From: Phycisphaerae bacterium
GTDB lineage: Bacteria; Planctomycetota; Phycisphaerae; Phycisphaerales; SM1A02
Length of the DNA: 46,419 bases
Reading direction: 5' to 3'
NCBI GenBank assembly: GCA_018701395.1
Contig: JABIWU010000032.1
Coordinates: forward strand, 1 to 46,419
Positions 738 through 46,419 of this stretch are shown in pieces. The position numbers and the translations under genes are program-made. Numbering within the stretch: position 1 is the stretch's first letter; each line of letters opens with the position of its first letter. The notes beneath the pieces are model-generated. The model did not search any database. It saw only the letters and a list, made by a program, of their open reading frames with translations, and was not told the DNA's origin.

Positions 738-766
738 ATTGTAGCATGGAGTGTACTTTACTCCAA
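738..766 (-). promoter_or_regulatory. Predicted pyrG promoter
   Basis: On the minus strand a TTGGAG hexamer (761-766), a 17-base spacer and TACAAT (738-743) precede ATG 732 by five bases. If used, transcription would begin at or next to the start codon. The -35 match is poor, so the call rests mainly on the -10 box and its spacing. Confidence 0.35.
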
Positions 767-875
767 GTAGATATTGCAATTAATATGAAAAGTAGAACTT
801 TAGGACGCCCATCTTGGGAGTGTCTTCACTATTTTGGTGTCAGATACCATGTACACACTGAGTTCATCCCATATA

Positions 876-881
876 TATAAT
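876..881 (+). promoter_or_regulatory. Predicted -10 box of kdsB (leaderless)
   Basis: A perfect TATAAT ends six bases before the kdsB ATG at 888. A -10 box normally lies six or so bases from the transcription start, so the mRNA would start at the A of ATG. No clear -35 box is seen. The same geometry recurs at eight other genes in the window. Confidence 0.5.
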
Positions 882-887
882 GTGAGG

Positions 888-1571
888 ATGGATAAAAAAG
901 TTGTTGCAGTTATTCCTGCGAGAATGGACTCATCGCGATTTCCCGCAAAAATGATTGCGGATGCATCAGGAAAACCTCTGATTCAGTATGCTTGGGAAGT
1001 TGCAAACAAGGCACAATCGGTGACCGAGGTTTACATTGCGACTGATTCAGAGGAAATTGCAACTCGGGTCCGCGCATTTGGGGGCGAGGTCATCATGACT
1101 GGAATACATCCAAATGGCACAAGCAGAATTGCTCAGGCAGTCCAAGATTTAAATTGTGATTTAGTTGTCAATATGCAAGGCGATGAACCAGAACTTGACC
1201 CCATAGTCATTGATAAAACTGTTGAGATTATTGGCGATTCCGTGATGGCTACAGCGGCTTGTGCTTTGCAATCAGATGAAATAGAAAATGTTAATGTTGT
1301 GAAAGCGAAAATTGAAGGCGATTTTGCGATTGATTTTTCTCGCCTTTCTGAAAATGATTCGTTAAGGCACATAGGATTATATGTGTATCAACTATCTTTT
1401 TTGCAAACATATGTAGCAATGCAACCAACTCAAAATGAAATCGGCAGGAAACTCGAACAAATGCGAGCGATTGACAACGGGTACTCGATTGCAGTTGCAA
1501 TAGTTGAACCACAGCCCGGCGGGATTGATACTAAAGAACAATACGAAGAGTTTGTCGCAAGGCTAGGTTAG
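888..1571 (+). CDS. kdsB: 3-deoxy-manno-octulosonate cytidylyltransferase (CMP-KDO synthetase)
   Basis: KdsB activates KDO with CTP to give CMP-KDO for lipopolysaccharide inner-core synthesis. The 227-residue protein has the nucleotide-binding signature IPARMDSSRFPAK (residues 9-21), the metal and nucleotide motif NMQGDEPE (about 95-102) and a late LEQMRAIDNG block where the family has LEQLR. It is slightly shorter than the usual 245-250 residues. The frame stays open upstream to 834, but ATG 888 (MDKKVVAVIPAR) matches the family start and sits six bases after a TATAAT box. Its presence implies a KDO-containing outer membrane. It diverges from pyrG and converges on the TPR gene that ends at 1623. 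Confidence 0.95.
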   Translation: MDKKVVAVIPARMDSSRFPAKMIADASGKPLIQYAWEVANKAQSVTEVYIATDSEEIATRVRAFGGEVIMTGIHPNGTSRIAQAVQDLNCDLVVNMQGDEPELDPIVIDKTVEIIGDSVMATAACALQSDEIENVNVVKAKIEGDFAIDFSRLSENDSLRHIGLYVYQLSFLQTYVAMQPTQNEIGRKLEQMRAIDNGYSIAVAIVEPQPGGIDTKEQYEEFVARLG

Positions 1572-1601
1572 CCGTAGGCTCTGACATAGGCGTATTGCTA
1601 C

Positions 1602-1624
1602 AAGGTCCTTTTTAGGCCTTTATT
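1602..1624. terminator. Weak hairpin between convergent kdsB and TPR gene
   Basis: AAGGTC (1602-1607) can pair with GGCCTT (1615-1620), with one G-U wobble and a T-rich loop. It lies between the stop codons of two convergent genes. A second small hairpin, GGCTA/TAGCC (1561-1573), overlaps the kdsB stop. Neither has a convincing T-tract, so a terminator role is tentative. Confidence 0.25.
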
Positions 1625-3077
1625 AGTCGAGTTTTTTAACAAGTGCGTCAAGTTCTCGACGACAATCTCGGATGTCGCGATAGGAAATATCTTTTCGCGC
1701 AATCCCAGAACAAATATCCATTGCTTCTTTTGCTAAATCGATGTTGCCATCTGCTTCAGCTTTCTTGGCAAGTGACTGCATTAAATCATAACGAAGTGAA
1801 AGTTCTGTATCGTTGTCACTGCCTGCAAGTGCCTTGATAGATTCTTTAAATTCACTAACGGCTTCTGTATACCAGCCCTCTGAAGCAAAGCATCGCCCAA
1901 GTTCTTGTCCAGCTCGAACACGCAAGCGTGGCTCGTCTTTCGCTTTTTGAAAACATTCCATTGCCAAATTTGTGTCACCGTCTTGTATCGCTAATTCGCC
2001 AAGTTGGAATCGGATTTTTCTGTCGGTTGGATAATTCGAGGCACGTTCTTGGTATTCTTGCTTTTTAAATGAGTTAAGTTCAGCAACAGACGAATCATAT
2101 TTTTCTTGCAGCGCTTCATCAGGACTCGAGGCAAGTTTTTCTTCTAATTGTACAATTTGATAAGCAGCCATTGAAATTTTGATATCAGCAGCTTCCATCC
2201 TGAAGCGGTATTGTTTTGTTGCTTTGAAGCCGTGCATCAAAACTTGAAACGCTAATTTAGTATTTTCAGGCGAGGCATGTTTCTTTAAAACTTTTACGTA
2301 TGCAGAGACGGCATCAGGCGAATTTGGGTTTTCTTCTAATTCTTTTTTAGCACGAGCAATAACTCGCTCTGCACTTCCAGCAGAACCAGCAAGAGATTCG
2401 TCTTCTTCTAGTTCGCGCTGCTTGTCGATATCCTTGACGAATTTTTTGAATCCACCTTCTTCGGTTCCCATTTGGTCGTAGCCACCTTCCGTCATTGCTC
2501 GCTCTGCAGCTAATTCGTTTAGGGCTCTTTCTAGCACCGCATCATCAGGCTTAGCTGCAAGTGCAGCTTGTCCAACTTTTATTGCTTGATCCCAAGCGCC
2601 TGCGGATTGGAATAATTCCATAAGGGATTTGAGTTCTTTAAAGGTTAGGGCCTTGCCATCTTTTGAAGCAAGTGAGAGCAGTGTGTCTGCCATTGCAGCA
2701 CCAAAGTCGTTTTGTTCAGCATTAACTGCAGCAGAGACAGCTTTCATGGCGTTCTTTGCATTCATGACATCGTGCCACCAAACAAAAAGAGCAGTTACAA
2801 ATTTGTCGATTTCAGTGGAACCATCGACTTGTTTTATTTGTTTATTTGTAGCCTTGTCGCCACCACGGTTGTAGTACGTTGTGGCGATTTGTAGCACTTC
2901 TTTGTGAATGGAAACATCTCGTGGGTCAAGTTTAAAACCACTTGCAAAAAAGGCAAATGCTGACTCAAAGTTGTGGCTTTCCGCCATTTGTCGAGCTCGA
3001 TCAAACCAAGCGCTCGCTTTCTCTGGATCAGGTAGGAATATTTCTGTAGATTTTGATTTTTTTCCAAATAGTGCCAT
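1623..3077 (-). CDS. Tetratricopeptide-repeat protein of unknown function
   Basis: This 484-residue protein is soluble, with no signal peptide or membrane span. It is highly charged and rich in Ala, Glu and Lys. Helical repeat pairs with TPR character are visible near residues 20-60 (ASAWFDRARQMAESHNFESA), 160-200 and from 340 to the end (IRFQLGELAIQDGDTNLAME; GRCFASEGWYTEAVSEFKES). The central part looks coiled-coil-like. TPR arrays usually act as protein-binding scaffolds; no partner can be named. ATG 3077 has GGGGA about nine bases upstream and a TAGAAT box at 3105-3110 on the minus strand. The gene is divergent from def and may share a control region with it. I do not recognise a specific family. 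Confidence 0.8.
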   Translation of the reverse strand: MALFGKKSKSTEIFLPDPEKASAWFDRARQMAESHNFESAFAFFASGFKLDPRDVSIHKEVLQIATTYYNRGGDKATNKQIKQVDGSTEIDKFVTALFVWWHDVMNAKNAMKAVSAAVNAEQNDFGAAMADTLLSLASKDGKALTFKELKSLMELFQSAGAWDQAIKVGQAALAAKPDDAVLERALNELAAERAMTEGGYDQMGTEEGGFKKFVKDIDKQRELEEDESLAGSAGSAERVIARAKKELEENPNSPDAVSAYVKVLKKHASPENTKLAFQVLMHGFKATKQYRFRMEAADIKISMAAYQIVQLEEKLASSPDEALQEKYDSSVAELNSFKKQEYQERASNYPTDRKIRFQLGELAIQDGDTNLAMECFQKAKDEPRLRVRAGQELGRCFASEGWYTEAVSEFKESIKALAGSDNDTELSLRYDLMQSLAKKAEADGNIDLAKEAMDICSGIARKDISYRDIRDCRRELDALVKKLD

Positions 3078-6161: not shown

Positions 6162-7664
6162 ATGTATCCTGTAACTGCACGGATGCACACGCTACAAACA
6201 CTAATTGAAGGACTCGATGCACGGATAGAAGGCGAACAATTTGCCTCATCTGTGAGCAGTGTCGTGCAACACTCAGAAAGAGTTGTAAAGGGATCTTTAT
6301 TTATTGCTCGAAGTGGCGTTCGCAGAGATGGCGCAGCTTTTATTGATGATGCAATTTCTAAAGGTGCTGTTGGTATTGTCTGTACTCCTGATGTAGCAAC
6401 GACATTACGACATAAAAATATCACAGTAATTGAAACGTGTGACCCATGCAAAGTTGGCGCAGTTATTGCGGAACGATTTCATGGAAACCCCTCTAGCAAA
6501 TTAAAACTTGTAGGCGTCACAGGTACAAATGGGAAGACGACGATTGCTTGGCTTATCAGGCATTTAGTGTCTTCTTCTGGAATAAAGTGCGGAATGTTGG
6601 GGACAATTGTTTGTGATGACGGTGTTGCAACTGATACATCTACTTTGACGACTCCGAGTTTCTGTGACATCGGTTTAATTTTGCATTCAATGGTTGACAA
6701 TGGTTGCAAAGTTGCGGTGATGGAATGTTCAAGCCACGCTCTTGACCAAGGGAGAGTTGCAGCACTAGATTTTGACATCGGCGTGTTTAGTAATTTGTCT
6801 GGCGACCATCTTGATTATCATGGTTCTGCGGATTCTTATTTGCAAGCAAAAATGCGATTGTTTGACTTGGTTTCTGAAACAGCAATAATAAATATGGACG
6901 ACCCAGCAAGTTGGTCGGTTGCTGATTGTACTTCTGCAAAAGTGATTTCTTGCAGGATAGAAAGTGATGCTTCGAACGCTTGGGTTGAAATCCTTGAAGA
7001 GAAAATCGATGGCTCGGATATTCGCTTGCATGGAGCTTGGGGAATAATAGAATTAAATTTACCGTTACTCGGTCGGCATAATGCAATAAATGCTTTGCAA
7101 GCAGTCGCAGTTGCATTTTCACTTGGAATTACAAAAGAAGCAATTGCTGATGCACTTGCTACGGTGCTCGCGCCACCAGGTCGACTCGAACGTGTTCAAG
7201 CAGGTAAAACGGCGGTGTTTGTTGATTTTGCACACACAGACGACGCACTCGAACAAATGCTTTGGTCTGTCCGACATGTTCTGCCAGAAGGTGGCAAGTT
7301 GCACGTAGTTTTTGGTTGCGGAGGCGATCGAGATGTGTCAAAACGCCCGCGAATGGGTCGGATTGCATCCACGGTTGGTGATGTTGTATATGCAACAAGC
7401 GATAACCCTCGAAGCGAAAATCCAGAAAGTATTTTAGACCAAGTTCTTTCTGGGGTGCCAAAAGATAGGTCAAAAAAAGTACACCGGATTGCAGATAGAA
7501 AATGCGCGATACAAACTGCGATTCAAGCAGCGAGGCAATGTGATGTTGTTGTCATTGCTGGCAAAGGGCATGAGAAAAATCAAATCTTGAAAGACAGGGT
7601 CATTCCATTTGATGATGTGCAAATTGCAGCAGATGCGATTGCAAATCGGGAAATTATGGTGTGA
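6162..7664 (+). CDS. murE: UDP-MurNAc-L-Ala-D-Glu:meso-2,6-diaminopimelate ligase
   Basis: MurE adds the third amino acid to the peptidoglycan stem peptide. It shows the Mur ligase P-loop GVTGTNGKTT (118-127), the DHLDYHGS block near 215, the carbamylated-Lys region YLQAKMRLF (Lys230) and FAHTDDALEQML near 356. The substrate-selecting motif is DNPR (414-417), which in characterised MurE enzymes indicates meso-diaminopimelate rather than lysine. This gives direct sequence support for DAP-type peptidoglycan. ATG 6162 is given as the start; ATG 6183 (MHTLQTLIEG) fits homologous N-termini about as well. The stop overlaps murF (GTGA). Confidence 0.95.
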   Translation: MYPVTARMHTLQTLIEGLDARIEGEQFASSVSSVVQHSERVVKGSLFIARSGVRRDGAAFIDDAISKGAVGIVCTPDVATTLRHKNITVIETCDPCKVGAVIAERFHGNPSSKLKLVGVTGTNGKTTIAWLIRHLVSSSGIKCGMLGTIVCDDGVATDTSTLTTPSFCDIGLILHSMVDNGCKVAVMECSSHALDQGRVAALDFDIGVFSNLSGDHLDYHGSADSYLQAKMRLFDLVSETAIINMDDPASWSVADCTSAKVISCRIESDASNAWVEILEEKIDGSDIRLHGAWGIIELNLPLLGRHNAINALQAVAVAFSLGITKEAIADALATVLAPPGRLERVQAGKTAVFVDFAHTDDALEQMLWSVRHVLPEGGKLHVVFGCGGDRDVSKRPRMGRIASTVGDVVYATSDNPRSENPESILDQVLSGVPKDRSKKVHRIADRKCAIQTAIQAARQCDVVVIAGKGHEKNQILKDRVIPFDDVQIAADAIANREIMV

Positions 7665-8983
7665 GTTTTACAACCGGTCAATTAGTAAAGTATGTACACG
7701 GCAATTTGCTTGGCGATTCAGAAGTGTGCTGTATTGGCGCAGAAATAGATTCGCGTCGCCAATTGGCAGGCAAAGTTTTTTTTGCATTGAAGGGTGAGCA
7801 AACAGACGGGCATGATTTTGTACAGAGCGCAGTCGAAAATGGTTGCGCAGCAATTGTAGCAGAGCGTTTTTGCGCCGCAAATGTACCAGTTGTTGTTGTA
7901 GAAGATGCAAAAAATGCATTGTTTCAACTTGCAGTGGCGAGGCGAAATGAAATGCAGTTTGATGCTGTTATTGCTGTCACAGGATCTGTCGGCAAGACGA
8001 CTACTAAAGACATTCTCGCGTGTTTGCTCGGTGAAAAAGTTGCAGCATCAATGGATAGTTTTAACAATGATCTTGGAGTGCCCCTTACCATACTTGACGC
8101 TGAACACGCAGATTATTTGGTTGCAGAAATTGGTGCAAATGCAATTGGTGAAATTGAACCACTCGCATCCCTAGCTCGACCAGATATTGCGATAATAACT
8201 TCTATAGAAAAGGCCCATCTAGAGGGTTTTGGTGACATGGAAACGGTACTTCGGGAAAAGGGCAAGTTATTGCAAGCGGTTCCTGCTTCTGGTTTTGTCA
8301 TCGTCCCAGATTCGATTGATGTCTCAAGTCTTGCTATTTCGGCATCGATTGTTCGAGTGGGAATGAGCGATTCTGCAGATGTGCAATTGAAAACAGGAAT
8401 TGACTGCAATGGATTTGCAACCGTTTCTATTGACGGGAACAGCGCCACGCTCTCTTTACTTGGGGAACATAACGCTATGAATGCAGCCCTTGCAGTCATT
8501 GCTGTTTCAAAAACAAATCGAGGATTAGCAATTTCAGAGTTGCTTGCGTTAGCAACAAATGCAATTCCTGCGAAAGGGCGACTTGCTACTACGGTAGTAG
8601 ACGGCATTTCATTTGTAAATGACGCCTACAATGCTAATCCTGCATCTATGCGTTCTGCTTTGCAATTATTCAGTAAAATGCAAGCAAAACGCAAGGTTCT
8701 TGTACTTGGAGATATGCTCGAACTTGGAGAAAGTTCGCACTGTGAGCATCGCTCTCTTGTTTCATGTATCGAAAACGCAAATGCAGAGGTTGTTTTTCTT
8801 GTTGGTGACGAGATGAAAGCAGCATCGAGCGTTGGTGCATCAATCCAACTCGATGTAAGCGATCTTGATTCTATTGTTCCGTTATTGAAGCGAGATGATC
8901 TTGTGCTTCTCAAAGGATCGCGAGGGTTGCGATTAGAACAAATTATTGATTTAGTTCAACAAACAAAAGTTTTAGAGCACTAG
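7661..8983 (+). CDS. murF: UDP-MurNAc-tripeptide:D-alanyl-D-alanine ligase
   Basis: MurF adds D-Ala-D-Ala to UDP-MurNAc-tripeptide, completing the pentapeptide precursor. It has the N-terminal substrate-binding fold with VFFALKGEQTDGHDF (39-53), the P-loop VTGSVGKTTTK (106-116), the NNDLGVPLT block and NDAYNANPASM in the C-terminal domain. Length is 440 residues, normal for the family. The start is GTG 7661 within the murE stop overlap. The order murE-murF-mraY is that of the classical dcw cluster. Confidence 0.95.
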   Translation: MSFTTGQLVKYVHGNLLGDSEVCCIGAEIDSRRQLAGKVFFALKGEQTDGHDFVQSAVENGCAAIVAERFCAANVPVVVVEDAKNALFQLAVARRNEMQFDAVIAVTGSVGKTTTKDILACLLGEKVAASMDSFNNDLGVPLTILDAEHADYLVAEIGANAIGEIEPLASLARPDIAIITSIEKAHLEGFGDMETVLREKGKLLQAVPASGFVIVPDSIDVSSLAISASIVRVGMSDSADVQLKTGIDCNGFATVSIDGNSATLSLLGEHNAMNAALAVIAVSKTNRGLAISELLALATNAIPAKGRLATTVVDGISFVNDAYNANPASMRSALQLFSKMQAKRKVLVLGDMLELGESSHCEHRSLVSCIENANAEVVFLVGDEMKAASSVGASIQLDVSDLDSIVPLLKRDDLVLLKGSRGLRLEQIIDLVQQTKVLEH

Positions 8984-40118: not shown

Positions 40119-41159
40119 GTGATTTTTTATATGCATACTATTATGTATATGTTCCGCCACATGCTTATCTCTTTGTTCCTAACAAGTACAACACTTGCTA
40201 CCACGTGGACTGTTGATGATGACGGTAAGGCAGACTTTGACAACATTCAAGCAGCGGTAGATGCTGCAAGTAATGGTGATGAGATTGTTGTGATGCCAGG
40301 GACGTATACAAGCAGTGGCAGTTATGTCGTCAATATGAATGGCAAAGAGGTTTTACTCAGAAGCAAAGAAGGTCCACAAACGACTATAGTCAGCGGTCAG
40401 AATCAGCGAACAGTCTTCTTCTGCGGAAGTGGCGTAACGCTCTCAACAATAATTTCAGGATTTACAATCACCCAAGGGTCTGGGAGTCAGGGTGGAGGTA
40501 TCAGATGTGAAGTGTCATCGCCAAGAATTGAAAATTGCCGTATTGTTAATAATTCTGCAGGCCATGGGGGAGGAGTTGCTTGGCTAGGTCCAAGCACCGA
40601 TATGGGAGAGATTGTCAACTGCGTATTCAAAAATAACGAAGCGTTTAGTCATGGCGGCGCTATTTTTTGTGATATGGGAAATTTCTGGGTGACTGATTGC
40701 CTTGTCCGTGACAATATCGCAAACATCACCGGTGGAATTCATGTGTATTGCTGCAGTGTTGGCCTTGTGAATACCGCTGTGTGCTCAAATACAAACGGAC
40801 AAACATACGGCACTCTAGAAAATGACGATTGCTTGATATCCGAAACATGCGAAAGTGGTTGCGGGGATATCAATGGCGACAACATAGTGAATGTAGGAGA
40901 CTTATTAATCATCATCAAAACTTGGAACACATCCGACATAGATGGCGATGTAACACTGGATGGGATTGTTGATGTGGAAGATATACTCTTCATTGTTTCT
41001 GCTTGGGGTAACGATTGCTCTCCACCGCAACTTGCCGCTTGTTGTTTTGGCGACATGAAGTGGGGTTGGTGCGAATTCATAACTGAAGAAGAGTGCAATT
41101 CCGCAGGCGGCTGGTACATGGGTGACGGTACAGACTGCGGTTCTGTTTCTTGTTTTTAA
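40119..41159 (+). CDS. Secreted parallel beta-helix protein with dockerin-like and Cys-rich tails
   Basis: This 346-residue exported protein has a signal peptide ending near STTLA (about residue 27). It begins with the WTVDDDGKADFDNIQAAVDAA motif of planctomycete right-handed beta-helix proteins, then helix rungs (ISGFTITQG, GGGIRCEVSSPRIENCRI, GGAIFCDMGNFWVTDCLV) to about 225. Two dockerin-type loops follow (DINGDNIVNVGDLLIIIKTW and DVTLDGIVDVEDILFIVSAW). A 38-residue Cys-rich unit, AACCFGDMKWGWC...GDGTDCGSVSCF, closes the chain. GTG 40119 is chosen on promoter spacing; ATG 40131 and 40143 are alternatives. The likely role is a surface or secreted carbohydrate-active or binding protein. Confidence 0.85.
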   Translation: MIFYMHTIMYMFRHMLISLFLTSTTLATTWTVDDDGKADFDNIQAAVDAASNGDEIVVMPGTYTSSGSYVVNMNGKEVLLRSKEGPQTTIVSGQNQRTVFFCGSGVTLSTIISGFTITQGSGSQGGGIRCEVSSPRIENCRIVNNSAGHGGGVAWLGPSTDMGEIVNCVFKNNEAFSHGGAIFCDMGNFWVTDCLVRDNIANITGGIHVYCCSVGLVNTAVCSNTNGQTYGTLENDDCLISETCESGCGDINGDNIVNVGDLLIIIKTWNTSDIDGDVTLDGIVDVEDILFIVSAWGNDCSPPQLAACCFGDMKWGWCEFITEEECNSAGGWYMGDGTDCGSVSCF

Positions 41160-42837: not shown

Positions 42838-43740
42838 TTAAGAGATGACTGACGTTCCGCATTCTGTAACAAGGGTTTTGAATAATTCAGTAAGTCGCAA
42901 TGTCATTGGTCCAATTGCACCTGAGCCTATTATTCGACCATCAACTTTTGTGACACAAGCAAGTTCGCCCATAGTTCCAGTGCAAAAACACTCGTCTGCT
43001 CTATAGAGTTCTGCTTGGGAACAATCTTTAACTATAAGATCGATAGTATGCTCGTTGCATAAATCAATAACAACTTGCCGAGTAACACCTTCAGGACAGG
43101 CAATCGCCCTAGAAGTAAATACGACGTCATCTTTGACAAAGAAAAGATGTGTTGCATTTGTTTCTGCAATAAATCCGCGAGCGTCAAGCATCAATGCATC
43201 ATCAGCGCCTGCTGCATTTGCTTCAATTTTCGCCATAATTGATTGGATTAAATTGCAACTATGGATTTTTGGATCGAGCGTGTCGGGCGTAAATCTTCGA
43301 ATCGAAGAAGTGACAAGCGAAATCCCAGATGTGTCATAGACAGGACTCTTAAATTCAGCAAGGACAATGAGCGTATTTCCATCTTGGTTAAGTCTTGGGT
43401 CCATCCCACTTGTAATTTTCTTTCCTCGAGTAAGCGTGAGCCTAATATGTACCCCGTCGATCATATTGTTTGCTTGAAGTGTTTTTGCAATTTCAGAAGT
43501 TAGTTCTTCATTGCTTGGGATATTTTCAAAAGCCATTGCCTTGGCGGAGTCCCTTAGACGATTCAGATGTTCTTCAAGTTTAAAGATGCGTCCGTTGTAA
43601 AGTCTAAGACCTTCCCAGACACCGTCACCGCCTTGCACGACGGAATCAAATGGGCTTATGCCGGCACTATCTCTATGAAAGAGTTCTCCGTTGATATTGA
43701 TTTGTAAATCGTTGTTTCGAGTATCAAATGTTTGGAGCAT
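42838..43740 (-). CDS. Class IV PLP aminotransferase (BCAT/D-amino-acid transaminase-like)
   Basis: This 300-residue enzyme has the fold-type IV PLP domain. SPFDSVVQGGDGVWEGLRLY spans about 29-48, the PLP Lys is probably Lys158 in LDPKIHS, the ETNATHLFFV loop lies near 193, and CTGTMGEL near the C-terminus binds phosphate. It may act on branched-chain or D-amino acids; specificity is not readable. The frame is open from 43794, but ATG 43740 has AAGGA eight bases upstream. It overlaps the end of the sulfotransferase-like gene by 17 bases, so the two proteins are made together. Confidence 0.88.
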   Translation of the reverse strand: MLQTFDTRNNDLQININGELFHRDSAGISPFDSVVQGGDGVWEGLRLYNGRIFKLEEHLNRLRDSAKAMAFENIPSNEELTSEIAKTLQANNMIDGVHIRLTLTRGKKITSGMDPRLNQDGNTLIVLAEFKSPVYDTSGISLVTSSIRRFTPDTLDPKIHSCNLIQSIMAKIEANAAGADDALMLDARGFIAETNATHLFFVKDDVVFTSRAIACPEGVTRQVVIDLCNEHTIDLIVKDCSQAELYRADECFCTGTMGELACVTKVDGRIIGSGAIGPMTLRLTELFKTLVTECGTSVIS

Positions 43741-44476
43741 GTTCTTTTCCTTCTGGCGAGATCTTATGCGCAGCGAGTTCTTCGTAGAGGTCAATACATT
43801 CTAAGCATACTTTTTCAAAAGCAGGGGGTACTTCTTCATCTTTAGGCATCCATGGTGCAAATCCAGTTGAAGATTCAACAGATGCATACCAATGAGGTGC
43901 CCATACCCCGTCGCTCTCTCGTTTGCCAGAAGGCCATGAGAGCATTTGTTTATAGAAGGGAATAGCGAGCTTCTTACATAGTGTGCGGAGCATTTGTTCT
44001 GGCTGCTGAAGAATATCTTTGCTATCGAGAACGAGTGGTAATGTGCCCGTTGCCTTTTGAACAAAGTTGAAGAGTTTAAGTTGTTGAGGCAAACCAGTTT
44101 CTTCAATAGTTGGATTTGGAATCGTTCTAAGTAAACTCGTCATCATTTCTCTTGGATGGCGAATAAGGAATACATTTGTAACTTGAGAGAGCCAATCACG
44201 AGTAATGTTTGGCAGCAAGTGGTGCGTCATGTGCTTTTGGTAAAACACACTTTCACTACATGGTCCTACAAGTTCTTCTACAACTTTTTCCCAATTCGAT
44301 GCATGGTGTGTAAGAATTGCATCTCGTCCTGGATGATCAAGCCCTGTTACTTTTAAATAATGAGCGTAGAAGGGTTCATCAGAAACAATTGTGTCAGGTC
44401 GATTCTCCCACGAACGCATCATTGCAGTTGAAATGTTTCTAGGTCCAGACCAAGTAGCGATGCGGAGAGTATTCAT
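43724..44476 (-). CDS. Sulfotransferase-like P-loop protein paired with aminotransferase
   Basis: This 250-residue protein has the sulfotransferase-type nucleotide-binding start TWSGPRNISTAMMRSW (8-23), where the GPRNIST segment replaces the PAPS 5'-loop. A second phosphate-binding block, FLIRHPREMMTSLL, lies near 123-136. The rest matches sulfotransferase topology in outline (DEPFYAHYLKVTGLDHPGRD; DGVWAPHWYASV). Real PAPS use is uncertain; the family has no firmly known reaction to my knowledge. The stop lies inside the aminotransferase gene. In plants, from memory, the same two domains form one polypeptide. Confidence 0.8.
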   Translation of the reverse strand: MNTLRIATWSGPRNISTAMMRSWENRPDTIVSDEPFYAHYLKVTGLDHPGRDAILTHHASNWEKVVEELVGPCSESVFYQKHMTHHLLPNITRDWLSQVTNVFLIRHPREMMTSLLRTIPNPTIEETGLPQQLKLFNFVQKATGTLPLVLDSKDILQQPEQMLRTLCKKLAIPFYKQMLSWPSGKRESDGVWAPHWYASVESSTGFAPWMPKDEEVPPAFEKVCLECIDLYEELAAHKISPEGKEHAPNI

Positions 44477-44670: not shown

Positions 44671-45990
44671 ATGCACATCACAAGAAGAACGTTTGTTAAA
44701 ACAACTGCTACCCTTCCATTTATATCATCTTTAAGTTACGGTCGGATACTTGGTGCAAATGATCGATTGAATGTTGCATTCATTGGCACTGGCGGGATGG
44801 GCACATCGCACGCAAAGAATTTGGCAGGACGTGTTGAACAGGAAAATGAAACTATCACACATGTTTGCGATGTCTACAACCGCCGGCTCAATGCTGTTGC
44901 GAAGATCACTGGCGCAATTCCAACATTAGAATATAGAGAAATCCTCGATGCAGATGATGTTGACGCGGTTGTGATTTCAACGCCAGATCACTGGCATACG
45001 AAGATGGCAATTGAAGCGATGGAAAGTGGCAAGGACGTCTACGTTGAAAAGCCACTCTCGCACACAATTGAGCAAGCGCTCGAATGCCGTGATGCCGTTC
45101 ATCGAACGGGACGAACCTTGCAAGTTGGTCCGCAGGGCACCAGCAGTGGTCGCATTTGGGCGGCACAAGATGCGATTAGCAAAAACTTAATTGGCAAAGT
45201 GAGTTGGTCTCAAGCGTCCTATTGCAGAAACAGTCGTGGCGGGCAGTTTAATTGGCCAATTGATGCAGATGCTGGGCCACACCAAGCGAAAGATCATGAT
45301 GGCTATGTTTGGTGGGACAGATGGCTTGGTCATCAATGGAACCTTGCACCAAAGATAGATTGGAATGCCGACCACTTCTTTAGGTTTAGAAAATACTTGG
45401 CTTATAACGGCGGGCTTGCAACCGATTTGTTGTACCACCGGCTTGCGCCATTTTTGCGAGCAATTGAAGGGGCTAACGGCGCATACCCATCAAGGGTTGT
45501 TGCATCTGGTGGCACGTATCTTGAAAAAGATGAACGAGATATTCCAGATACCTTCCTTATGGTCGCGGATTATCCAAATGAACATTCAATAGTCCTTGCA
45601 AGTGTCATGACAAACAGCGAAGGATTGCCAACGGTGATTCGCGGGCAACACGCAACGATGTTTGTCGACGACGGACCAAAAGTTGTTGGACAAGGAACTT
45701 GGGAAGAGGAATTCAAGGCAAAAAGCGGAGGCGAGATGGAAGTCATGCTAACGCCACATGAGCGCCGTGACCATATGGGTAATTTTCTTGATGCAATTCG
45801 AAATGGCGATGAACTTGCATGCAATGTTGATCTTGGCTGCTCGACAATGGTTGGCATTAAGATGGCAGTCGATGCCTTGCAGCAAGACAAAGTGCTTCGC
45901 TGGAATGCAGAAGATGAAAAAGTTGTTTCGTCCTCTGAATCTTCAAAACAAATTCTTGCGGGGTTAGCGCTACCATCCTTTGCGTGTTGA
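44671..45990 (+). CDS. Tat-exported Gfo/Idh/MocA-family oxidoreductase
   Basis: This 439-residue protein has a twin-arginine signal (ITRRTFVKTTATLPF). A Rossmann domain follows with FIGTGGMGTSHAKN (about 36-49), then STPDHWHTKMAIEAMESGKD and the EKPLSH motif, as in planctomycete Gfo/Idh/MocA enzymes. These enzymes oxidise or epimerise sugars using NAD(P). The frame is open from 44614, but ATG 44671 has AGGAG eight bases upstream and gives the Tat signal at the N-terminus. One base separates its stop from the sulfatase start, so both belong to one carbohydrate-degradation unit. Confidence 0.93.
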   Translation: MHITRRTFVKTTATLPFISSLSYGRILGANDRLNVAFIGTGGMGTSHAKNLAGRVEQENETITHVCDVYNRRLNAVAKITGAIPTLEYREILDADDVDAVVISTPDHWHTKMAIEAMESGKDVYVEKPLSHTIEQALECRDAVHRTGRTLQVGPQGTSSGRIWAAQDAISKNLIGKVSWSQASYCRNSRGGQFNWPIDADAGPHQAKDHDGYVWWDRWLGHQWNLAPKIDWNADHFFRFRKYLAYNGGLATDLLYHRLAPFLRAIEGANGAYPSRVVASGGTYLEKDERDIPDTFLMVADYPNEHSIVLASVMTNSEGLPTVIRGQHATMFVDDGPKVVGQGTWEEEFKAKSGGEMEVMLTPHERRDHMGNFLDAIRNGDELACNVDLGCSTMVGIKMAVDALQQDKVLRWNAEDEKVVSSSESSKQILAGLALPSFAC

Positions 45991-45991
45991 T

Positions 45992-46419
45992 ATGAAAAAA
46001 GTTTGTTTTCTAATTAGTCTTTTCTTTGTTCTGGGATGTCAAACAAAAACCCCCGAACGGCCAAACGTCGTATTCTTTCTTGTGGACGACCATGCATTGA
46101 AAGCAGTAAGTAGTTACGAAGGCTCTCTCATAGAAACTCCCAACCTCGATCGCATCGCAAACAACGGGATGCGTTTTGATGCGGCGTGTGTTACCAATGC
46201 AATTTGTGCACCTAGTCGTACAGTTATTCTGACGGGAACGCATAGTCACATCAATGGCGTTGTAGATAACGGTTCCCGATTTGACCCTTCTCAGCCGACA
46301 TTTCCACTTCTTATGCAAGAAGCGGGATACCAAACTGCAATGATTGGAAAATGGCACCTGAAATCAAATCCAGTTGGTTTTGATTACTGGGACATTTTGA
46401 ATGGTCAAGGTCAATATTA
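45992..46419 (+). CDS. Sulfatase lipoprotein (C-terminus beyond window)
   Basis: This is the first 142 residues of an arylsulfatase-type enzyme. The signal peptide ends in the lipobox VLGC (Cys16), so it is probably a lipoprotein. Metal-binding Asp32 and Asp33 lie in FFLVDDHAL. The formylglycine motif is CAPSR (residues 72-76), where Cys72 would be oxidised by an anaerobic or FGE-type maturase. GKWHLK follows, as in the family. The coding frame runs off the right edge. It sits one base after the Gfo/Idh stop, consistent with desulfation of marine polysaccharide or glycan. Confidence 0.93.
   Translation, partial: MKKVCFLISLFFVLGCQTKTPERPNVVFFLVDDHALKAVSSYEGSLIETPNLDRIANNGMRFDAACVTNAICAPSRTVILTGTHSHINGVVDNGSRFDPSQPTFPLLMQEAGYQTAMIGKWHLKSNPVGFDYWDILNGQGQY

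Follow-up and report, generated by a model that had tools for sequence, protein, structure and literature searches.

A sulfotransferase gene paired with a lysine-less aminotransferase-like gene in Planctomycetota and other bacteria

What might a sulfotransferase and a protein of the class IV aminotransferase family do together? The question is raised by a contig of a Phycisphaerae bacterium (JABIWU010000032.1; the 46,419 nucleotides analysed are called the window throughout), for which a preliminary description had noted that a sulfotransferase gene runs into a class IV aminotransferase-like gene. Both genes are indeed present, in this order and with 17 bases in common; they and their products are referred to here as ST and AT. 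The relevant features, in window coordinates, are as follows.

43724-44476, minus strand: ST gene, 250 amino acids; Pfam PF19798 Sulfotransfer_5, E 1.4e-54
44426-44449, minus strand: ST residues 10-17, SGPRNIST, 5'-phosphosulfate-binding-type loop; P12, R13, S16 and T17 invariant in 30 rows
44135-44161, minus strand: ST residues 106-114, R-x-P...S, 3'-phosphate-binding-type motif; R106, P108 and S114 invariant in 30 rows
43748-43752, minus strand: AAGGA, ribosome-binding-like motif of the AT gene, read from the sequence, 7 bases before the ATG
43724-43740, minus strand: overlap of the ST end and the AT start, 17 bases
42838-43740, minus strand: AT-like gene, 300 amino acids; PF01063 Aminotran_4 (class IV aminotransferase), E 1.3e-45
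43558-43560, minus strand: Arg61 codon, PLP phosphate contact position, together with Thr220 and Thr256; all three present in 67/67 homologues of the phylum sample
43261-43263, minus strand: His160 codon at the position of the Schiff-base lysine, placed by alignment to IKSLNY of 5cm0; 7z79 has Asn, its chain position 174, in this column
43162-43164, minus strand: Glu193 codon, contact position for the PLP pyridine nitrogen; Glu in 67/67 homologues of the phylum sample

The overlapping locus and its sulfotransferase half

In the list of open reading frames, AT starts at an upstream TTG (43794). The ATG at 43740 is preferred because the whole stop-free AT frame of a close relative (locus L006 of genome G004) comprises only 300 codons, and because Met1 is nearly invariant across 46 rows. 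Since the AAGGA motif sits within the coding end of ST, translation of AT is probably coupled to that of ST. The nearest plus-strand genes encode a YceI-like protein, a protein without a Pfam match that appears membrane-like by eye, and a Gfo/Idh/MocA oxidoreductase, and they do not suggest a pathway. Two further observations concern the surroundings of the pair: the start of a sulfatase-like gene, recognized by eye at 45980-46417 (RPNVVFFLVDDH... CAPSRT), lies near ST and runs off the window, and positions 40119-41159 encode a protein that looks secreted by eye, with a dockerin match below threshold.

ST scores 185.3 bits against the Sulfotransfer_5 profile (curated cut-off 23.2), and its AlphaFold model (pLDDT 93.5) shows a predicted sulfotransferase fold, with the sulfotransferase of CurM as the best solved match (PDB code 4gbm; Z 14.8, rmsd 3.9, 217 residues aligned). 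We take residues 10-17 to be the 5'-phosphosulfate-binding-type loop and residues 106-114 to be the 3'-phosphate-binding-type motif; across the 30 rows, both phosphate-binding motifs of PAPS sulfotransferases are present. Judged by these motifs and the predicted model, the ST half belongs to the PAPS-type sulfotransferases. The sulfotransferases of CurM and of olefin synthase (4gbm, 4gox) share with it the Sulfotransfer_5 profile, the fold (Z 14-15) and the PAPS-type motifs, however, the identity is 15-16% and the window ST is a stand-alone partner of an AT-like protein. In the CurM pathway, sulfonation activates a hydroxyl group for elimination. An APS kinase, for PAPS supply, is present in the window's own genome. 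As a marker of the pair this enzyme was rejected, since it is strong in genomes with and without ST (22/22 close genomes with ST versus 15/19 without) and does not discriminate between them.

Histidine at the lysine site of a class IV fold

The description of the second gene as an aminotransferase stands in part. Its product has the class IV profile, and in the predicted model (pLDDT 88.5) the fold as well, the best solved match being a protein from Variovorax paradoxus (PDB code 7z79; Z 34.2, rmsd 2.2, 290 residues aligned); the phrase FDSVVQGGDGVWEGLR, to which attention had been drawn, is found in it. An ordinary aminotransferase is unlikely, because the catalytic lysine is absent. In an alignment with solved aminotransferases, the window AT reads DPKIHSCN where 5cm0 reads IKSLNY, the lysine of which we take to be the Schiff-base lysine for PLP, and His160 occupies that site.

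The same histidine is found in all 100 AT family rows, the window included, drawn from a GTDB contig set and close genomes; these rows include genomes reached twice, which leaves 92 distinct rows, and the GTDB collection, for which exact peptides (including one beside the His site) served as seeds and which was restricted to the best 80 of 205 loci, leans to close relatives. The AT pieces of two loci (L117 and L129) end short of the lysine site. A separate sample of 392 genomes of the phylum, gathered independently of these peptides, gave His in 67/67 AT homologues. An assembly or sequencing error behind His160 was rejected because the residue is the same in 100/100 rows. The neighbouring Lys158 was considered as a shifted lysine and also rejected: it varies in relatives (N, Q, V, R, H) and is thus unable to replace the missing one. 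Both class IV paralogues of the window's own genome (L002 and L003) retain Lys. A scan of viral contigs with AT as the query returned no relative.

The remainder of the cofactor cup is kept, with R61, E193, T220 and T256 unchanged in 67/67 homologues of the phylum sample. From the literature on E. coli BCAT and on D-AAT, we take Glu193 to be the contact of the pyridine nitrogen (N1) and the other three to be phosphate contacts of PLP. Compared with class IV BCAT and D-AAT structures (e.g., 5cm0 and 5e25), the window AT has the same fold (Z 32-33, archaeal BCATs), 37-40% identity, the phosphate cup and E193, but differs in the missing Schiff-base lysine and in having Gly or Asn in place of Tyr at 37 and His in place of Tyr at 98 of 5cm0. 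On sequence and predicted structure, the protein is therefore labelled 'aminotransferase-like' only, i.e., a class IV fold with the cofactor cup kept except for its defining lysine, since it is the Schiff-base lysine that is missing.

The closest structural match shares this peculiarity. 7z79 and the window AT belong to the same lysine-less clade (36% identity) and both keep the phosphate contact positions, however, 7z79 has Asn at the lysine site and Ser at the E193 position where the window AT has His and Glu. Relatives of 7z79 likewise adjoin the same ST subfamily, although the gene order in the 7z79 clade is AT then ST, unlike that in the window. PDB entry 9j32 is titled as the N174K mutant of the 7z79 protein, a title suggesting that the absence of the lysine had evidently caught its depositors' attention as well; our literature search found no paper on the Variovorax 7z79 protein.

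In a tree of 94 AT rows, 50 rows with His at the lysine site (H-type) and 14 with Asn (N-type) form one clade (SH-aLRT 99), within which the H clade has a support of 98 and the N clade of 99, apart from 30 K-type rows, all of which have Lys. The tree was built by a quick method without bootstrap from rows thinned by identity, and four trait columns, including the lysine-site and E193 columns, were masked. As H- and N-types form one clade in a tree rooted among the K-types, a single loss of the lysine is probable, with later divergence into two flavours. W42, H98, K108, E129 and C215 are common to both (49/49 H-type and 14/14 N-type rows, L205, on a very long branch, being excluded from these counts). 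Position 193 is Thr in 13/14 N-type rows and Ser in 1/14, and claims that need PLP chemistry with a protonated ring are weakened by this replacement of E193.

The excluded row is an observation in its own right. L205 (G036:C85:500-3500, about 738-1646, minus strand) encodes a divergent class IV member whose lysine site is occupied by His (RSHDNNQ) and which retains the Glu; a search for ST gave no match in the 3 kb around it and none in genome G036. By its sequence, L205 is possibly a third lysine-less lineage.

Pairing, fusion and exchange of partners

That the two proteins act together, as the preliminary description proposed, is well supported by the presence of ST in 67/67 genomes with AT and by natural bacterial fusions with the same domain order. 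Among 392 genomes of the phylum Planctomycetota, AT was found in 67, ST in 70 and both in 67, and AT without ST in none, with cut-offs of E up to 1e-75 for AT and up to 1e-15 for ST, and with N-types encountered only where ST led to them. Phylum and class names of the sampled genomes, here and below, are taken from relatives, and the Fisher test of co-occurrence in this sample ignores kinship. Each of the three genomes with ST only has its own particulars: G173 contains a 114-residue AT piece (73% identity) cut by the contig end before the lysine site, and in G111 and G438 an N-type AT lies directly upstream of ST. As for arrangement, ST immediately precedes AT on the same strand in 45 of the 67 pairs and lies elsewhere on the contig in 7 and on another contig in 15, one of the latter (G293) having in addition a cut AT piece beside ST. 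Since both genes are present also in the 22/67 genomes where they are not directly adjacent, the link between AT and ST is more than adjacency. The genomes searched are mostly fragmented assemblies.

In 41 close genomes, AT occurs in 21 and ST in 22, the extra ST (G010) lying at a contig end. Within the window's own genus (G000-G012), 6/13 genomes have AT and 7/13 have ST, the extra ST again being cut by a contig end; the pair is patchy there, as if gained or lost together.

Pairing extends beyond the phylum. The ST match is strong (E up to 2.2e-47) in 15 of 369 gammaproteobacterial genomes and only weak (24-34% identity) in 3, while lysine-less AT, searched with 7z79 as the query (E up to 1e-54), is present in 16, of which 15 have a strong ST. 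Conversely, all 15 strong-ST genomes carry a lysine-less AT, 3 of H-type and 12 of N-type, adjacent to ST in 12 cases and not adjacent in 3. G496 has a partial N-type AT and no ST match in the genome. Those class IV genes that were read from genomes with only a weak ST are K-type (3/3 in G708, 1/1 in G659 and 3/6 in G710, where one further match is a fragment short of the lysine site and two were not read); some gammaproteobacterial AT rows at first gave G through a shifted alignment and are counted as K, as in the tree alignment. A class of Bacteroidota (that of G441; 305 genomes) yielded 16 AT matches (E up to 1e-58), 13 of H-type and 3 of N-type, with ST at most 1.5 kb away in 15; the sixteenth (L260) was checked in that flank only. 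In the adjacent cases read, H-types have the order ST then AT, and N-types AT then ST.

The GTDB loci qualify the rule. ST lies in the fetched flank of 62 of the best 80 of 205 loci, and 7 of the other 18 genomes have it elsewhere (one weak, 27% identity), which leaves 11/80 for which no ST was detected in the genome at E up to 1e-3. In three of these (L084, L087 and L089) AT is within 20 bases of the contig start and a neighbour may have been lost; for the other eight, the sequence read extends 2.7 kb or more upstream. As these eight are not at a contig end, an H-type AT can, as far as the gene content indicates, exist without this ST or use another partner. Checked for co-occurrence in other genomes, the pairing is thus beyond chance and not refuted, with some genomes carrying AT without a detected ST.

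Neighbouring genes give few hints. A cluster of permease-like proteins occurs in the flank of just 16 of the best 80 of 205 loci and is therefore a weak hint to the substrate only; the two members scanned both match PF13520. A conserved third partner was rejected, as the neighbours vary. In five loci (L044, L046, L061, L072 and L078), whose genomes gave no Sulfotransfer_5 match at E up to 1e-3, a permease-like gene is directly upstream of an H-type AT, the neighbour in L044 matching PF13520; a permease in this position might point to the substrate. Five Phycisphaerales loci (L043, at 7158-7967, L034, L048, L053 and L065) have a gene of 265-273 amino acids between ST and AT, which in L043, the one scanned, gave no Pfam match and has ankyrin-like phrases by eye.

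In-frame fusions of ST and AT were found in two genomes (L113 in G319 and L114 in G344) of a single genus (g229). Each is 539 amino acids long from the Met before ST, and in the L113 frame Pfam places Sulfotransfer_5 at 60-292 and Aminotran_4 at 336-561. At the sequence level, this bacterial fusion is a natural Rosetta-stone case.

The trees of the two halves differ. In a tree of 78 ST rows, likewise quick, without bootstrap and thinned by identity, and excluding 17 STs for which no partner is known, the STs of the pair stand apart from distant PF19798 members (support 100), and N-paired STs nest within H-paired STs. Mixed pairs illustrate this: L116 (N) and L126 (H) have STs 56% and ATs 41% identical, and L118 (N) and L080 (H) have STs 61% and ATs 47% identical. 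On account of this nesting and the mixed pairs, the AT and ST trees are not congruent, and ST partners seem to have been exchanged between H- and N-types, as if the two types did the same job. Since ST lineages combine with either AT type, a strict mechanistic requirement for His160 and E193 is disfavoured.

Possible roles of the pair

The reading that we prefer, held tentatively and given somewhat less than an even chance on sequence and predicted structures, is that ST and AT constitute one two-part, PAPS-dependent enzyme whose AT-like half holds PLP, PMP or an adduct non-covalently. The two halves, fused in some bacteria, would associate physically in the others. With its lysine replaced by His, or by Asn in the sister clade, the AT-like half would form no normal internal aldimine and run no ordinary transaminase cycle; because the phosphate cup is kept, non-covalent binding of PLP or PMP, or else of a PLP/PMP-substrate adduct, is probable. 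The substrate of the pair would then be a single small amino or keto acid, its adduct held by AT and sulfonated by ST.

The main rival, a possibility that we regard with some doubt, makes the AT-like protein a non-catalytic partner. As a pseudoenzyme with an amino acid, a keto acid or PLP bound, it would position the substrate for ST or regulate ST. Loss of the catalytic lysine in every family member with the site read is what a pseudoenzyme would show, and the N-type has lost E193 too; H- and N-types also apparently exchange ST partners, as if the exact residue mattered little. However, His160, E193 and the cup are invariant in the H-type sample, as are the family-specific W42, H98, K108, E129 and C215, a degree of invariance that fits an active site better than a relaxed one. 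Retention of AT in some genomes without a detected ST also speaks against a mere accessory of ST.

A more specific form of the two-part enzyme, which we consider unlikely, is a new class of vitamin-B6-assisted sulfo-chemistry, in which AT would carry the PMP/PLP adduct of a keto or amino acid and ST would sulfonate that adduct, the system being split in most bacteria, fused in a few of them and possibly also fused in plants. The sulfonate could be placed on an oxygen, which would drive elimination, or on an enamine carbon, which would give a sulfonated amino acid.

Decidedly unlikely, and argued by analogy, is a PMP-dependent elimination or deoxygenation like that of ColD and E1, in which His160 would act as acid-base and ST would first convert a hydroxyl into a sulfate leaving group. 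CurM, the closest match of ST in both sequence and fold, offers a precedent in its sulfonation-then-elimination pathway. ColD, E1 and SpnQ are of fold type I, the aspartate aminotransferase fold, whereas the window AT is class IV by profile and predicted structure, and owing to this difference they provide an analogy only. In E1, ColD and SpnQ, dehydratases related to aspartate aminotransferases, a His that serves as base on PMP takes the place of the catalytic Lys (PMC8987622); the window family has the same Lys-to-His change with the cup kept. These enzymes act on sugar nucleotides and have no sulfotransferase partner, unlike the window pair, and in the N-type, whose partner is of the same ST subfamily, the two key positions are occupied by Asn and Thr/Ser.

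It is very improbable that the AT-like chain serves as the dead subunit of a heterodimer whose other subunit is a class IV paralogue with lysine from its own genome. The window's own genome does have two K-type paralogues, and a class IV match is found in 41/41 close genomes, but such matches occur in genomes with and without the pair, the gene that co-occurs is ST, and the cofactor contacts are kept in AT. Least probable, and rejected as an identity for AT because the lysine is missing, is an ordinary branched-chain or D-amino acid aminotransferase beside an unrelated sulfotransferase: AT does match BCAT and D-AAT profile models, but 20/20 NCBIfam matches listed are below the curated cut-offs, Lys158 is not conserved, and the two genes co-occur even when apart.

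The bacterial fusion invites comparison with plants. Plant branched-chain-aminotransferase-like proteins, a candidate counterpart, carry an N-terminal sulfotransferase-like domain in the same order, with a length close to that of the 539-amino-acid bacterial fusion, and presumably have His at the lysine site. Our literature search returned nothing on these fused plant proteins and, in the titles, abstract beginnings and passages covered, no paper on AT function and none linking PF19798 to an aminotransferase. A study that gathered plant sulfotransferases by nine Pfam numbers included PF19798 in this set; its available text does not contain the word aminotransferase (PMC12506393).

AT thus looks like a branched-chain aminotransferase by profile but lacks the defining residue of this chemistry; in the three bacterial samples, i.e., Planctomycetota, Gammaproteobacteria and a class of Bacteroidota, it goes together with a sulfotransferase. 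If the plant homology is true, the finding would also concern an uncharacterised plant protein. The ST-AT pair and its natural fusion offer a defined route to a reaction that would join sulfate activation with an aminotransferase fold.
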